From Methanolobus bombayensis (GTDB lineage Archaea > Halobacteriota > Methanosarcinia > Methanosarcinales > Methanosarcinaceae), in NCBI RefSeq assembly GCF_017873415.1, contig NZ_JAGGKD010000003.1, forward strand, positions 1-64,000: a stretch of 64,000 nt of DNA, in the 5' to 3' direction. Shown here in pieces: positions 19,396 to 25,210 of the stretch. How positions within the stretch are numbered: position 1 is the first letter of the stretch; every line of letters begins with the position of its first letter. The translations under genes were made by a program, and so were the position numbers. The notes beneath the pieces are model-generated. The model had not been told where the DNA came from. It made no database searches and was given only the letters and a program-made list of their open reading frames with translations.

Positions 19396-20199
19396 TCAGT
19401 CATCAAGACCTTCAAGTATCTCTGCAGGTGCACCCAGCAATTTTACAAGGGCTTCTGCTTCTATAAAATGAAGAGATGCAGGAATTACCAGTATATGTAA
19501 AGGTTCCCCGAAATCCTCTTTCTTTAAATCATGGGCATATCCTGCCTTAACAACAGGTGCTTCGGAACCTGCTCTGGCAATCCCCACAGCAATGGCATTT
19601 TCCATGACACCTTCACCACGTTTCTCCTCTACTTCTAAAAGCAGGGAAAGAGCCTGGTTCACCGTCATGTAACCTTTATCTTTATCGATATCGAGAAAGA
19701 CAAGAGTATGCATATTGTGCTCTTTGTTAAGCTTGATAGTATCATAAGGAGTTTCAGATACTACCGTGACACCACGACTGCTGGTAAACGGATGAGGGAT
19801 TGTTGATGCTTTTCCGAAACGATAGTTCTGAAGGCCGGACAGTCCGCAGATAGCAGAAGCAATTGAAGAGCCATGTATGAGCTTGCTTTCGATACCAAGA
19901 TCTTTTGCACGTAGTCTCAGATCAACATGGGTTGTTGAAACCATGGTGTCACCTCCTGTGAGGAAAGCCACGTTCTTATCTTTTGCTTCAGCAAGCCAGT
20001 CAGGAGAGATTTCCACGTCCTCTCTGGAAAGAAGGTTTACTTTTTTTCCGTAGAGTGATTCGAGTTCTTCCAGCGAACTACCCATGAGTCTTGATGTGTA
20101 GAATTCAACAAATACCATATCAGCATTTTTTATAGCTTCAAGTCCTTTCAGGGAGATATCTTTCCCGTCAAAAAGGCCCAGTCCTATGAAAGTGAGCAT
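19396..20199 (-). CDS. dphB: Diphthine synthase
   Basis: 267-residue SAM-dependent methyltransferase (tetrapyrrole-methylase fold) that methylates the modified histidine of elongation factor 2 in diphthamide synthesis. The N terminus MLTFIGLGLFDGKDISLKG and the GGDTMVSTTHVDLRLRA segment (SAM loop) are typical. The start at 20199 is chosen because DphB proteins begin exactly there; an in-frame start at 20352 would add 51 residues rich in hydrophobics with no family match and would leave almost no space for the divergent thermosome promoter. First gene of the run that continues with herA, DUF357, DUF555 and pfkB. Confidence 0.95.
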   Translation of the reverse strand: MLTFIGLGLFDGKDISLKGLEAIKNADMVFVEFYTSRLMGSSLEELESLYGKKVNLLSREDVEISPDWLAEAKDKNVAFLTGGDTMVSTTHVDLRLRAKDLGIESKLIHGSSIASAICGLSGLQNYRFGKASTIPHPFTSSRGVTVVSETPYDTIKLNKEHNMHTLVFLDIDKDKGYMTVNQALSLLLEVEEKRGEGVMENAIAVGIARAGSEAPVVKAGYAHDLKKEDFGEPLHILVIPASLHFIEAEALVKLLGAPAEILEGLDD

Positions 20200-20401
20200 A
20201 GTCCGCAAATATGTCCTTATTGGATAAATGCTTTGAGAATGGCAGGGAATAATTAAAGAAGCATTAATGTATAGCCAGAAGGGCAGCAGAGTGAATGGAA
20301 ATGAGAAAAGAAGTCGTAATATTTTTATAGAACCACATACAGTTAGTTTCACTCATACATGAAAATGTAGAATTATACTGATATAATTTATTTATACTAT
20401 T

Positions 20402-20407
20402 GGAGGT
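20402..20407 (+). promoter_or_regulatory. Strong ribosome binding site of the thermosome gene
   Basis: GGAGGT, ending 8 nt before the ATG at 20416, close to the full anti-SD complement. A TATA-like stretch (TGATATAATT, about 20378-20387) lies upstream, so this message should have a leader, unlike many others in the window. Confidence 0.7.
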
Positions 20408-20415
20408 CTGAATTC

Positions 20416-22053
20416 ATGGCAGGATATGGCAATCAAGCACAACAACCTATAGTCATCGTTGATCCTAGTAAAGAGCGCACAACAGGAAAAGATGCATTAT
20501 CAATGAACATCGCTTCTGCACAGGCAGTTGCAGGCATCATTAAAACAACTCTCGGTCCAAAGGGAATGGACAAGATGATGGTAAACATCATGGGAGATAT
20601 AACCCTTACAAACGACGGTGCAACAATTCTTGAGGAAATGGAGATCGAACACCCAACCGCAAGAATGATCGTTGAAGTCGCAAAGACACAGGAAAAGATC
20701 GCAGGAGACGGTACAACCAGCGCAGTGGTCCTTGCAGGTGCGCTTCTTGAAAAGGCACAGAAACTGATAGAGACAGGTGTCCATCCAACTGTTCTTGTAA
20801 AAGGATATACAATGGCAACCGGAAAAGCTCTTGAGATCCTTAACGATTACTCTGTGAATGTTGACAAGACTGACAGGGAAATGCTTGAAAGAATAGCAAA
20901 CACTTCCATTACCGGCAAGGCGTCAGAAATGGCAGGCAATCACCTTTCAAAGATCTGTGTTGATGCTATCTATGCAATCGAGCATGAAGGAAAGGTTGAC
21001 GTTGACAAAGATATTGTACTGGCAAAGGAAATCGGGGGAACTGTTCAGGACACAGAACTCATTAACGGTATTTCTATAAGAAAGGAAGCGCTTCACAATG
21101 AGATGCCACGCCGCATCGAGAACGCAAAGATAGCACTTATTGATACCGAACTTGTATTTGCTAAGACAAACACAACTTCCAAGCTTCAGGTTGATAATGC
21201 TGATCAGCTGTTCGACTTCAAGGAACAGGAGAAAGCAAACTTCAGAAAAACAATCCAGAAGATCATTGACACCGGAGCAAATGCTGTATTCTGTTCCAAA
21301 AAGATTGATGACTATGCACTCCACTTCTTCAAGGAAGCAAACATGTACGCAACAAGACGTGTCAAGGATGAGGATATGGAAGTACTTTCATACTCCACAG
21401 GCGCTGCTCTTGTTAGAAACGTAAACGAGATCACAGCTGATGACCTTGGATACGCAGAACTTGTAGAACAGGAAGATGAACACGAGGAGAAGACCTACAT
21501 CAAGGGATTCAAAGATGCGAAGACAATGACCATCATTATTAAAGGTGGTTCAGAACATGTGACCGATAATGTTGAGCGCGTGTTCGATGATGCACTTCAT
21601 GTTGTGAAATCTGTATACGAGGATGGTAAGATCGTAGCAGGAGGAGGAGCATCCGAGATAGAGGTCTCACAAGCCCTCAGAAGCTATGCCTCAGGCATTG
21701 AAGGTCGTGAACAGCTTGCAATTATCGCGTTTGCAGATGCCATTGAAGAGCTTCCAAAAGCTATTGCCACAAACTGTGGATTTGATAGCATTGACACAAT
21801 TATTGAACTGCGTTCAAAACACGGAACTATAAAGAATGCTGGTCTGGATGTTGAATCAGGCGAAGTTGTTGATATGCTTGAGAAAGGGATCGTTGACCCT
21901 CTGAGAGTCAAGACCCAGGCAATCAAATCTGCGTCAGAAGCAGCAATCATTGTACTTCGTGTTGATGATATGCTCCGTGCAAAGGAACAGGCAATGATGG
22001 ATGTTAAACCTGAGCACAACATACACAACTACGATATGGCAGGAATGTTGTAA
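20416..22053 (+). CDS. Thermosome subunit (group II chaperonin)
   Basis: 545-residue subunit of the archaeal ATP-driven folding chamber (CCT/TF55 family). Visible motifs: TLGPKGMDKMM (ATP P-loop), NDGATILEEMEIEHP, GDGTTSAVVLAGALL with the catalytic Asp, and the C-terminal equatorial GGGASEIEVSQALRSYA. The C terminus ends HNYDMAGML and lacks the Gly-Gly-Met repeat tail found on many thermosome subunits. Methanosarcinaceae usually encode several subunits, so this is one of a set; which one (alpha, beta, gamma) cannot be decided here. It has its own promoter, a strong GGAGGT site, and a hairpin terminator directly at the stop codon. Confidence 0.96.
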   Translation: MAGYGNQAQQPIVIVDPSKERTTGKDALSMNIASAQAVAGIIKTTLGPKGMDKMMVNIMGDITLTNDGATILEEMEIEHPTARMIVEVAKTQEKIAGDGTTSAVVLAGALLEKAQKLIETGVHPTVLVKGYTMATGKALEILNDYSVNVDKTDREMLERIANTSITGKASEMAGNHLSKICVDAIYAIEHEGKVDVDKDIVLAKEIGGTVQDTELINGISIRKEALHNEMPRRIENAKIALIDTELVFAKTNTTSKLQVDNADQLFDFKEQEKANFRKTIQKIIDTGANAVFCSKKIDDYALHFFKEANMYATRRVKDEDMEVLSYSTGAALVRNVNEITADDLGYAELVEQEDEHEEKTYIKGFKDAKTMTIIIKGGSEHVTDNVERVFDDALHVVKSVYEDGKIVAGGGASEIEVSQALRSYASGIEGREQLAIIAFADAIEELPKAIATNCGFDSIDTIIELRSKHGTIKNAGLDVESGEVVDMLEKGIVDPLRVKTQAIKSASEAAIIVLRVDDMLRAKEQAMMDVKPEHNIHNYDMAGML

Positions 22054-22088
22054 AGAGGTTAAAACCTCTTCACCATACCTTTTTTTAT
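22053..22088 (+). terminator. Hairpin plus T-run terminator of the thermosome gene
   Basis: AAGAGGTT (22053-22060) pairs with AACCTCTT (22063-22070) around a 2-nt spacer (effectively a 4-nt loop), followed about 10 nt later by a run of seven T. The stem begins on the last base of the stop codon. Confidence 0.75.
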
Positions 22089-22235
22089 TCTTTTTAATCA
22101 TTTTACTCATTCGTAATTTCTTTTTGTATCTCAATTAGTTTTCTACATTGGCAGAAAACAATGTTACTAACTAAATTAACTCACGGATATATCAGCACAA
22201 TTGAATATGATTAATCATGACAAATAAACCAAATC

Positions 22236-22245
22236 TATATATACT
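22236..22245 (+). promoter_or_regulatory. TATA box of small-protein cassette A
   Basis: TATATATACT lies about 34 nt before the ATG at 22274. The start codon would follow a leader of only several nt, and no ribosome binding site is present. The equivalent box of copy B lies 404 bp further on. Confidence 0.55.
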
Positions 22246-22273
22246 ATAAATCACTTGTATATCATGATAAATC

Positions 22274-22378
22274 ATGACAGAACACTACTACAACAACAAC
22301 ATAAATCTAAGTAAGTTTGCCGGAATGATGACCGCCCTTGCAGCTGCAATGATGGGATATTATTCACTCATGGCATGA
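22274..22378 (+). CDS. 34-residue small protein, copy A
   Basis: A 34-codon gene, unrecognised. The N-terminal half is polar and Asn/Tyr-rich (MTEHYYNNNINLSKF); the C-terminal half is hydrophobic and Met/Ala-rich (AGMMTALAAAMMGYYSLMA), enough for one short membrane helix. The ATG at 22274 is the first start after an in-frame TAA at 22268. Support for a real gene: the whole cassette is duplicated at 22678, the frame is kept, and all four nucleotide differences inside the frame change the amino acid (H4R, N11D, A24T, G28V) without any stop. Translation would be nearly leaderless. I know no named family that fits. Confidence 0.75.
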   Translation: MTEHYYNNNINLSKFAGMMTALAAAMMGYYSLMA

Positions 22379-22396
22379 TTCAGATCCTGCCATGAG
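22367..22396 (+). terminator. Stem-loop spanning the stop codon of small protein A
   Basis: CTCATGGCA (22367-22375) pairs perfectly with TGCCATGAG (22388-22396) around a 12-nt loop that begins with the TGA stop. An A/T tract (AAACTTTTAATT) follows. The same structure exists in copy B with different loop bases. It may be a terminator or a 3'-end stabiliser. Confidence 0.6.
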
Positions 22397-22677
22397 AAAC
22401 TTTTAATTACAATAATTACTTTCCTCGAACTAATTTAATCGATTATTATATATAGAATTAATGAATTCATTTTATCGGTAGCAGACATTATAATCTTAAA
22501 AACTATAGGATTTTTAGATTTGTTAATTTGTTATAATCATTCAGCAGGCATTTTCATAGGGCAGATCAATTTCTTTCTGAGCTGAGTTTAAGTAACCGAT
22601 ATATTCAGAAATGATTAATCATGATAAATAAACCAAACCTATATATACTATAAACTACTTGTATATCATGATAAATC

Positions 22678-22782
22678 ATGACAGAACGCTACTACAACAA
22701 CAACATAGATCTAAGTAAGTTTGCCGGAATGATGACCGCCCTTGCAACTGCAATGATGGTATATTATTCACTCATGGCATGA
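22678..22782 (+). CDS. 34-residue small protein, copy B
   Basis: Second copy of the small gene, 30 of 34 residues identical to copy A, with a polar N-terminal half (MTERYYNNNIDLSKF) and a hydrophobic C-terminal half (AGMMTALATAMMVYYSLMA). It has its own palindromes, TATA box and stop-codon hairpin, so it is an independent transcription unit. The net charge of the N-terminal half differs from copy A (H4R, N11D). Function unknown; a membrane-associated peptide or small partner protein would fit the composition. Confidence 0.75.
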   Translation: MTERYYNNNIDLSKFAGMMTALATAMMVYYSLMA

Positions 22783-22800
22783 TCCGTATCCTGCCATGAG
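22771..22800 (+). terminator. Stem-loop spanning the stop codon of small protein B
   Basis: CTCATGGCA (22771-22779) and TGCCATGAG (22792-22800), 12-nt loop starting with TGA. Same stem as in copy A; the loop differs at two positions, which supports conservation of the stem. Confidence 0.6.
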
Positions 22801-22885
22801 AAACTTTTAATTACAATAATTTCTTTCCTCCAACCCCTTTTGGCCAAACAGGGACTTTGAAAGTTTAATTAAATACTTTTTAAAA

Positions 22886-23482
22886 TCATATCTGGTCATC
22901 TGAAAGACCATAGAATGCCTTATAATCATCAATTGCTTTTCTTGCCTGATTAGGATATTTATCAAGCATGCATTCAAGGAATTCGTCTCGTGAAGTGAAC
23001 TCCTTCATCCTGTTTATTATCTTCCTTGCATATTGCTTTGAAGAAGGATTATCTTTCTGTATCTCGAAAGTAAGACAAAGTGCGTCCTGTGGAAAATATT
23101 TCCTGCGAATGTATGGTGCCACAGAACCAAGAAGCACATCATGATCAAGTCTGCTGAATGCCGGCACACCGATACGCTTCAATCTTCCTGCACCTGTCAG
23201 CTTTTCAAGGTTCCCAGCGGAATAGGAATGAATCTCAATGTAGACTTCAGGTTTCAATTCCTCCACAGCTTCAATTATAGAAGTCCCGATTTCTGTAAAA
23301 TAGCGGTCATCTAGTGTTGAAACATAGTTTCCCTTATTCACAAGAGGAATAATTGCAAGTGTCCCGGTCTGCGGAGCCTGTATACTTTCAAGAATGTCGG
23401 TGGTATCCTTCCATTCCTCACCGTGCAGACCTGCCACAAACAACCTTACTGGTCTTCCTTCCCCAAGTATTCTGTATGACAT
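22886..23482 (-). CDS. DUF2119 family protein (M14/aspartoacylase-like fold)
   Basis: 198-residue protein of DUF2119, found in methanogens. Two short motifs resemble the zinc ligands of the M14 carboxypeptidase/aspartoacylase fold: GLHGEEWKD (His and Glu of HxxE) and YIEIHSYS (second His). Hydrolysis of an amide bond is therefore plausible, but the substrate is unknown. It begins 42 bp after an S4-domain methyltransferase on the same strand, so the two may share a transcript. It converges on the small-protein cassette B. Confidence 0.8.
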   Translation of the reverse strand: MSYRILGEGRPVRLFVAGLHGEEWKDTTDILESIQAPQTGTLAIIPLVNKGNYVSTLDDRYFTEIGTSIIEAVEELKPEVYIEIHSYSAGNLEKLTGAGRLKRIGVPAFSRLDHDVLLGSVAPYIRRKYFPQDALCLTFEIQKDNPSSKQYARKIINRMKEFTSRDEFLECMLDKYPNQARKAIDDYKAFYGLSDDQI

Positions 23483-23524
23483 GTTGATCCTAAATTTGTT
23501 TATTAGACAGCCTGATTCGATCTT

Positions 23525-24199
23525 TCACAGATTTTCAGAATGACCATTTTTCTGTGCGACTATGTATATCTCCTGCCTGTCTGAGTCCAGAACATCAAGT
23601 ATCTTTACGCCAAAAGATTCAACTTTAGCGATAATGGGTTTACTGTTCCTCTCTTTTCCCATTTTGATAACCTGAAGCAACTTACCTTTGTCCCTTAACA
23701 GCGGTAACACTCTTTCAAGAGCTGCCAGTGAATCCATTGGTTCCAGTGTCATATCACTGAGAATCACATCCACAGGTTCCGGTGACATCTCATCAAGAGG
23801 AATCTGGAAGACATCACCAAACATCACAGTAACATTTTCCTTTTCGCTGACAATTTTCCCAAGTTCAGTATCAAAATCCCTGCTGAATTCCACACCTTTT
23901 ACAGATGAAGCTACCTCAGATGCCATCATCAGAAATCCTCCCGCACTGGAACCCAGATCAAGCACTTTATCACCTGGAGAGATCACACATGTTGCATCCT
24001 GTATCCTTTTGAGTTTGAAGTAACCTCGAGGCATATCAAGTCCCTCGACAACATCAATATCTGAATCTGCACTGATGTCTTTTGAAGGCTTTTTCACAAT
24101 GGAACCATTGACCTGCACACTTCCATTTAGTATGGCTGTCTTGGCCCTTCCTCGCGATTTAAAGAATCCTGTTTCCACAAGGTATGCATCCAGTCTCAT
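23525..24199 (-). CDS. S4-domain SAM-dependent RNA methyltransferase (TlyA/FtsJ-like)
   Basis: 224 residues: an N-terminal S4 RNA-binding domain (about 1-60; MRLDAYLVETGFFKSRGRAK, GSVQVNG) joined to a Rossmann methyltransferase with the SAM motif KVLDLGSSAGGF, the acidic motif VILSDMTLEP and the lysine strand LLQVIKMGKER, an arrangement like RrmJ/FtsJ and TlyA 2'-O-methyltransferases. The RNA target, presumably rRNA, is an inference. The start matches the usual S4 N terminus. It is divergently transcribed from the BASS transporter 90 bp away. Confidence 0.87.
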   Translation of the reverse strand: MRLDAYLVETGFFKSRGRAKTAILNGSVQVNGSIVKKPSKDISADSDIDVVEGLDMPRGYFKLKRIQDATCVISPGDKVLDLGSSAGGFLMMASEVASSVKGVEFSRDFDTELGKIVSEKENVTVMFGDVFQIPLDEMSPEPVDVILSDMTLEPMDSLAALERVLPLLRDKGKLLQVIKMGKERNSKPIIAKVESFGVKILDVLDSDRQEIYIVAQKNGHSENL

Positions 24200-24289
24200 G
24201 GTTCAATTAATAAGGAAACGTACTATTTATATTATAGTTCCACATTGAACGGAAAGTTTCACAAGGGATTATTTCTCAGGAACTATATA

Positions 24290-25210
24290 ATGATAAAGAA
24301 ATTCACCTCCCTCTTCCCAGTATGGGCTATTCTGCTTTCAGTTATGGCTTTCATCTACCCTTCCGTTTTTTCACCATATAAAAGTGCTATAACCCCACTT
24401 CTGGGTGTTGTGATGTTCGGAATGGGAATCACACTTTCTGCAAATGATTTCCTGCTGGTGCTCAAAAGACCAAAGGTCATAGTCCTCGGAACCGCACTAC
24501 AATACATTCTGATGCCGCTTATCGCATTCATCCTGTCATACGTACTGAATCTTCCCCTTGGGATCATGGCAGGAATGGTACTCCTAGGAGCATGCCCCGG
24601 AGGAACTGCATCAAATGTAATCTGCTATCTTGCAAAAGGAGATGTGGCTCTGTCAATCACACTCACATCGGTTTCCACACTGCTTGCATTCATCCTGACA
24701 CCTGCACTTACCTGGCTTTACATCGGACAGGCAGTGCCTGTAGAAGTTGGAAGCATGATGCTGAGTATCGTGAAAATAGTACTTGTGCCTGTAGCACTTG
24801 GAATTTTCCTGAACACATTCTTCGACAAACACATTGAACGTTTCAGGCATGCGTTCCCTGCATTATCAGTAGCTACAATCGTTTTTATCATTGCAATAAT
24901 AATCGCTCTGAATAAAGACAGCATACTTGTTGCCGGGAAACTGGTTATCGTTGCAGTCATTCTTCACAATGGATTCGGACTTGTCAGTGGATACCTGCTT
25001 TCAAAGAAGCTGGGATTTGATGAGAAGGATGCCAGAACAATTGCAATTGAGGTTGGAATGCAGAATTCTGGGCTGAGCGTTGCACTGGCGGTGAAGTATT
25101 TTTCCTCGTTTGCGGCTCTTCCGGGTGCGTTGTTTAGTATATGGCACAATATTATGGGTTCTGCCCTTGCAGCATACTGGTCATCAGACAATGACAAAAC
25201 AAGTTTATAG
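24290..25210 (+). CDS. Bile acid:sodium symporter (BASS) family transporter
   Basis: 306-residue inner-membrane protein with nine to ten hydrophobic helices. The family signature GACPGGTASNVICYLAKGD, with the crossover helix next to it, and the second repeat (EVGMQNSGLSVALA) are present; these form the sodium and substrate sites in BASS transporters. The substrate is probably a small organic anion but cannot be read from sequence. Start at 24290 (MIKKFTSLF) places the first helix at the N terminus; an in-frame TTG at 24245 would add 15 polar residues. The next gene begins 11-35 bp downstream, so probably a two-gene unit with the HAD phosphatase. Confidence 0.88.
   Translation: MIKKFTSLFPVWAILLSVMAFIYPSVFSPYKSAITPLLGVVMFGMGITLSANDFLLVLKRPKVIVLGTALQYILMPLIAFILSYVLNLPLGIMAGMVLLGACPGGTASNVICYLAKGDVALSITLTSVSTLLAFILTPALTWLYIGQAVPVEVGSMMLSIVKIVLVPVALGIFLNTFFDKHIERFRHAFPALSVATIVFIIAIIIALNKDSILVAGKLVIVAVILHNGFGLVSGYLLSKKLGFDEKDARTIAIEVGMQNSGLSVALAVKYFSSFAALPGALFSIWHNIMGSALAAYWSSDNDKTSL

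Follow-up and report, generated by a model that had tools for sequence, protein, structure and literature searches.

The window, a 64,000-nucleotide stretch of Methanolobus bombayensis DNA, carries two small cassettes arranged as a direct repeat (positions 22207–22430 and 22611–22834; 224 nt per unit, 94% identical, spacing 404 bp), each of which holds a 34-codon open reading frame (ORF) with its own promoter elements and 3′ signals. The features of the region are as follows.

20416–22053, + strand: thermosome subunit gene, the constant left neighbour of locus 1
22207–22225, + strand: operator box A of copy 1, ATGATTAATCATGACAAAT, upstream of the TATA box; the same element precedes cdhA
22236–22244, + strand: TATA box of copy 1, TATATATAC, recognized by sequence and conserved in 46 aligned cassettes
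22260–22279, + strand: operator box B of copy 1, TATCATG-ATAAAT-CATGACA, overlapping the predicted transcript start and holding the start codon; the palindrome is also found at the acs promoter
22274–22378, + strand: small protein gene, copy 1, MTEHYYNNNINLSKFAGMMTALAAAMMGYYSLMA, 34 amino acids plus stop codon
22367–22396, + strand: stop-codon hairpin of copy 1, CTCATGGCA ... TGCCATGAG
22420–22429, + strand: pyrimidine-rich 3′ tract of copy 1, TTTCCTCGAA (consensus TTTCCTCCAA), conserved in locus-1 cassettes
22611–22629, + strand: operator box A of copy 2, ATGATTAATCATGATAAAT
22640–22648, + strand: TATA box of copy 2, recognized by sequence and from the 46-cassette alignment
22664–22683, + strand: operator box B of copy 2, TATCATGATAAATCATGACA, which includes the start codon
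22678–22782, + strand: small protein gene, copy 2, MTERYYNNNIDLSKFAGMMTALATAMMVYYSLMA, 34 amino acids plus stop codon
22771–22800, + strand: stop-codon hairpin of copy 2
22824–22833, + strand: pyrimidine-rich 3′ tract of copy 2, TTTCCTCCAA
22886–23482, − strand: gene for a 198-amino-acid protein, M14/desuccinylase-like by eye and with no NCBIfam match, the constant right neighbour of locus 1

The paired units, their 404 bp spacing and the palindromes, TATA box and stop-codon hairpin within each had been recognized in a preliminary description of this DNA and were recovered here, with a unit length of 224 bp. Comparison of the two copies also confirmed its count of four base differences within the ORF, all of them nonsynonymous, which correspond to the changes H4R, N11D, A24T and G28V. 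Absent from that description is the placement of the start codon within the second palindrome of each unit (22260–22279 and 22664–22683). Neither 34-codon ORF is preceded by an evident Shine–Dalgarno sequence, the pyrimidine-rich tract probably marks the transcript end, and a search of positions 20000–25000 of the window against Rfam returned no match.

The existence of a real small-protein family with duplication, proposed earlier from the two copies, is borne out by orthologues and by multiple copies at syntenic loci. An initial protein search, which covered 60 genomes, detected copies in the majority of same-genus genomes and, at its sensitivity, nothing convincing elsewhere; restriction to one genus was nevertheless rejected, since a family-wide search with a profile of both subfamilies (E ≤ 0.01) recovered members in 19 of 27 same-genus genomes and in six genomes of a second genus, most of the latter at the PaaI locus. 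The family thus totals 25 of the 112 genomes of the taxonomic family, in two genera and at syntenic loci. Its members are 34–39 residues long, start with MTE or MIE, contain a hydrophobic helix and a YYS motif near the C-terminus, and are located at the thermosome or the PaaI locus; named carriers of the start motif include Methanolobus profundi, M. vulcani, M. psychrotolerans, Methanolobus metagenome-assembled genomes (MAGs) and one Methanosarcinaceae MAG. Searches of Pfam, NCBIfam (for the two window proteins only), PHROG and PADLOC gave either no match or sub-threshold chance matches, and the family is a previously unannotated one, missed by current annotation libraries. A viral or mobile origin was rejected, the 21-base start motif having no match in viral contigs and PHROG giving no significant match. 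An intact ORF is missing from both loci in five or more same-genus genomes, among them G026, probably M. psychrophilus R15.

Locus 1, which contains one to three copies, lies between the thermosome gene and the gene for the 198-residue M14-like protein wherever the flanks are available. Locus 2, found in the M. bombayensis genome at G000:C2:90637-90750, is single-copy and situated between a PaaI-like thioesterase gene and, usually, a PAS histidine kinase gene. In the second genus the gene occupies the locus-2 position, with PaaK, DUF2099-like and PaaI genes on one side and a JAB-like gene on the other, and one genome harbours an additional copy elsewhere. For this reason locus 2 is probably ancestral, the thermosome locus being a duplication within Methanolobus. 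Several copies from one and the same genome cluster in the cassette tree, for the most part weakly supported. In genome G014, copies 1 and 2 are separated by a 24-codon piece of the M14-like gene (L037:5321-5392); it is a probable scar of, and fits, unequal tandem duplication. Genome G010 carries a family copy at a third place (L119:3860-5055), divergent from a gene for a 267-residue protein resembling a helix–turn–helix (HTH) regulator; this protein has no NCBIfam match and is possibly the regulator of the elements described below.

In the consensus of 46 aligned cassettes, box A reads ATGATTAATCATGATAAAT; a TATA box comes next, and box B with the start reads TATCATGATAAATC and then ATGACAGAA. 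Box B is an inverted repeat, TATCATG-N6-CATGAYA, with the start codon in its right arm. The operator-plus-TATA element occurs twice in the window, compared with 0.02 matches expected from dinucleotide shuffles, and the composite pattern of boxes A and B was matched in 19 of 60 genomes with zero control matches, always in front of a family member, one of which (in G023) has a decayed ORF. Box A alone proved too unspecific as a genome-wide marker at three mismatches. Since one report on a Methanolobus gives a TATA-to-start distance of ∼19–22 nt (PMC5378194), the mRNA is likely to start inside box B and to be nearly leaderless. The dyad layouts of the two boxes differ, and the boxes might bind different proteins. 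Archaeal operators that lie upstream generally serve activation, and those that cover the start generally serve repression.

Both boxes recur at genes of acetyl-CoA metabolism. A pattern consisting of TAATCRTGAYARA followed by TATA after 11–19 nt was searched for in 12 genomes; the 19 matches listed fall in eight of the 12 genomes, with zero control matches, and every one of them lies either at a small-protein gene or ∼150–170 bp upstream of cdhA (two pairs among the 19, in G030 and G009, overlap at one site each). In the M. bombayensis genome the pattern is present in exactly four places: the two window copies (C3:22212 and C3:22616), locus 2 (C2:90575) and C4:67470, 165 bp before cdhA, the gene assigned to CO dehydrogenase (CODH)/acetyl-CoA synthase. 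Two such sites precede cdhA in all 11 Methanolobus genomes examined and one precedes it in G028, G030 and G033, which represent three other genera; by the same test, none of the three cdhA copies in G036, a 4.2-Mb genome, has the element in front of it. The Methanolobus sites (L274:1200-1345 and orthologues) form two successive operator-plus-TATA units ∼125 bp apart, which suggests two co-regulated promoters. A scan for box B revealed, apart from the small-protein genes themselves, a conserved site, with at most one mismatch, directly after the TATA box upstream of acs (acetyl-CoA synthetase) in seven of seven genomes; promoter conservation was sampled in these seven genomes for acs and in 16 for cdhA. 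CdhA was identified by TIGR00314 (929.8 bits, cut-off 781) and Acs (acetate–CoA ligase) by TIGR02188. The small gene therefore combines the cdhA-type upstream box with the acs-type downstream box, and on the strength of these shared elements it is very probably a member of an acetyl-CoA regulon, under regulation common to cdhA and acs. No physical linkage of the small-protein genes to cdh or acs genes was found, and no binding motif for a cdh regulator was found in the literature searched. Since G026 and G015 retain cdhA, acs and their sites without an intact small-protein ORF, the small protein is not essential to the acetyl-CoA pathway.

Further candidate sites were observed. In M. bombayensis, a site resembling boxes A and B with one mismatch (G000:C14:5111-5133; L114) lies upstream of the gene for 2-isopropylmalate/citramalate synthase, another acetyl-CoA-consuming enzyme, and another candidate lies near a DUF166-like gene. 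A perfect TATCATG-N6-CATGATA is present in G026 and G015 (L263 and L265) between a gene resembling an AsnC-type regulator and a DUF22-like gene.

The ORF itself is under constraint. Median ω is 0.14 at locus 2 and 0.20 at locus 1, heterozygosity at codon positions 1, 2 and 3 is 0.23/0.11/0.43 and 0.18/0.09/0.32, third positions being the most variable, shifted frames are mostly closed, and the recent paralogue pair G016a/c differs by six synonymous changes and one nonsynonymous change. Codon comparison demonstrates purifying selection at the protein level, and there is hardly room for doubt that the small protein is coding and its family real. Selection to diversify, suggested earlier from the four replacements between the window copies, does not hold, because four nonsynonymous changes out of four would arise without selection with a chance of ∼0.42. 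Of the preliminary interpretation, the protein family, its duplication and its helix stand and diversification falls; the second locus and the operators common to cdhA and acs had been missed.

Stable structure is also predicted in the transcript. The stop-codon hairpins of the window have z-scores of about −5 against mononucleotide shuffles, and by the same measure the locus-1 hairpin scores −3.5 to −7.9 in 10 of 11 copies tested, the exception being G009, which has none. In the 34-residue lineage a 10-nt deletion altered the reading frame, so that LMA took the place of the ancestral C-terminus YHGVI/V, yet it left the hairpin arms TCATGGCATGATC...TGCCATGA intact, and G004 has an unrelated but equally stable hairpin at the same place (z = −7.6). 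In five genomes (G006, G023, G026, G015 and G021; L176, L177, L178, L180 and L188) the locus-2 ORF is eroded, while promoter relics in the form of a box-B-like palindrome, GTACCACA and a 3′ hairpin with identical AACAAATGGCCTGCCACCCATTTGTT are kept; these copies are possibly an mRNA gene turned into a non-coding RNA gene and may equally be decaying relics. The deletion, the G004 hairpin and the eroded locus-2 copies speak for a dual-function or mainly regulatory RNA, in which the transcript itself would be the main product and the peptide secondary, the active part being the stop-codon hairpin at locus 1 and the conserved 3′ untranslated region at locus 2. The strong codon-level constraint, the intact frames in the copies of 25 genomes and the missing hairpin of G022b and G009 argue against it, and as a full account it is judged unlikely, while an additional RNA role of the small-protein transcript is plausible.

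A short hydrophobic peptide with its own promoter and in tandem copies also invites comparison with type I toxins held in check by an antisense RNA, in arrays like those of Ldr and Ibs. Conservation is nevertheless confined to the sense promoter, the ORF and the 3′ elements, nothing points to an antisense gene, the loci are fixed and vertically inherited, PADLOC and PHROG gave no significant match and viral contigs no match, and the operator is common to housekeeping acetyl-CoA genes, all of which makes a toxin highly improbable. The chances are similarly slim for a thermosome-linked stress peptide, or for a cold-box small RNA (sRNA) as in M. psychrophilus R15. The constant position beside the thermosome gene would fit the former, and PMC5378194 describes, in R15, nine sRNAs that are induced by cold and have an upstream motif in common; however, locus 2, probably the ancestral one, has no thermosome neighbour, the motif of the cassettes recurs at cdhA and acs instead, and G026, the probable R15, has a single relic locus rather than the nine or so expected, so that identity with the cold box is not supported. 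Finally, a non-coding repeat or chance ORF, conceivable for a short frame in an AT-rich intergenic region, can be dismissed in view of the ω values, the conserved frame under purifying selection and the orthologues in another genus.

The preferred reading, to which we assign a probability of roughly 0.55 as a whole, is that of a co-regulated helical small protein which modulates acetyl-CoA/acetate metabolism; it builds on the family, the protein-level selection, the locus history and the shared promoter elements, all established by sequence comparison. The two ORFs would be tandem copies of a genuine small protein with a polar N-terminus and one hydrophobic helix. This architecture, already put forward in the preliminary description, agrees with the AlphaFold2 model, a single helix spanning residues 3–33 (mean pLDDT 83), and with the best 19-residue hydropathy of 1.26–2.16 across members, which ranges from borderline to clearly membrane-like; as the value is borderline (1.26) for some members, this may be an amphipathic helix and not one that spans the membrane. 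Each copy would be transcribed from its own, nearly leaderless promoter, which carries two sites, probably for a single dimeric regulator. One, box A, directly precedes the TATA box, as it does at the cdhA operon; the other, box B, spans the transcript start and the start codon and corresponds to the site that follows the TATA box of acs. Because its promoters combine these two types of site, the small gene would be expressed in step with CODH/acetyl-CoA synthase and acetyl-CoA synthetase. The protein may then act as a membrane-associated modulator of an acetyl-CoA/acetate enzyme or transporter, both its presumed membrane location and its presumed partner being part of this proposal, in the manner of sP36 on ammonium transport in Methanosarcina mazei. 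The shared operators of CODH/acetyl-CoA synthase and Acs, the lack of an enzyme-like domain and the sP36 precedent make such a modulator the most likely role, at slightly less than even odds. More tentatively, in methylotrophic methanogens the small protein (or the peptide together with its RNA) could be dedicated to balancing CODH/acetyl-CoA synthase against acetyl-CoA synthetase under an undescribed TATCATG-N6-CATGATA regulator, with operator and translation start residing in the same bases.

Little is understood of the way in which methanogens change over between acetyl-CoA formation from CO2 plus a methyl group and the uptake of acetate. The analysis predicts one specific operator that cdhA, acs and the new small-protein gene have in common, and that occurs at cdhA in several genera of the family. 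With it come a short list of targets and a bait for the affinity isolation of the regulator.

Among known systems, the Ldr and Ibs type I toxins are short hydrophobic peptides encoded in tandem cassettes, from which the Methanolobus cassettes differ in showing no antisense partner, in their fixed vertical loci and in their metabolic operator. MreA/TrmB-type control in M. acetivorans, as described in PMC4158304 and PMC12918732, likewise involves a regulator of acetate and methanogenic carbon genes. According to the former, no binding motif could be identified for MreA, and identity with it is not supported, since the element was not found before the three cdhA copies of G036. The small-ORF proteins and dual-function sRNAs of M. 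mazei, such as sRNA154 (PMC11456600), resemble the present family in having a short ORF with almost no leader, set in a small transcript that is structured and regulated. Genus and operator are different; for the present family, codon-level selection and tandem duplication are demonstrated and translation is predicted. According to PMC10714827, the 61-residue sP36 of M. mazei relocates to the membrane and binds AmtB1. It serves nitrogen metabolism, in contrast to the cdhA/acs operators of the present family. The likeness proposed is one of role, sP36 being a small protein from a related genus that has its place in nutrient assimilation and targets a transporter at the membrane.
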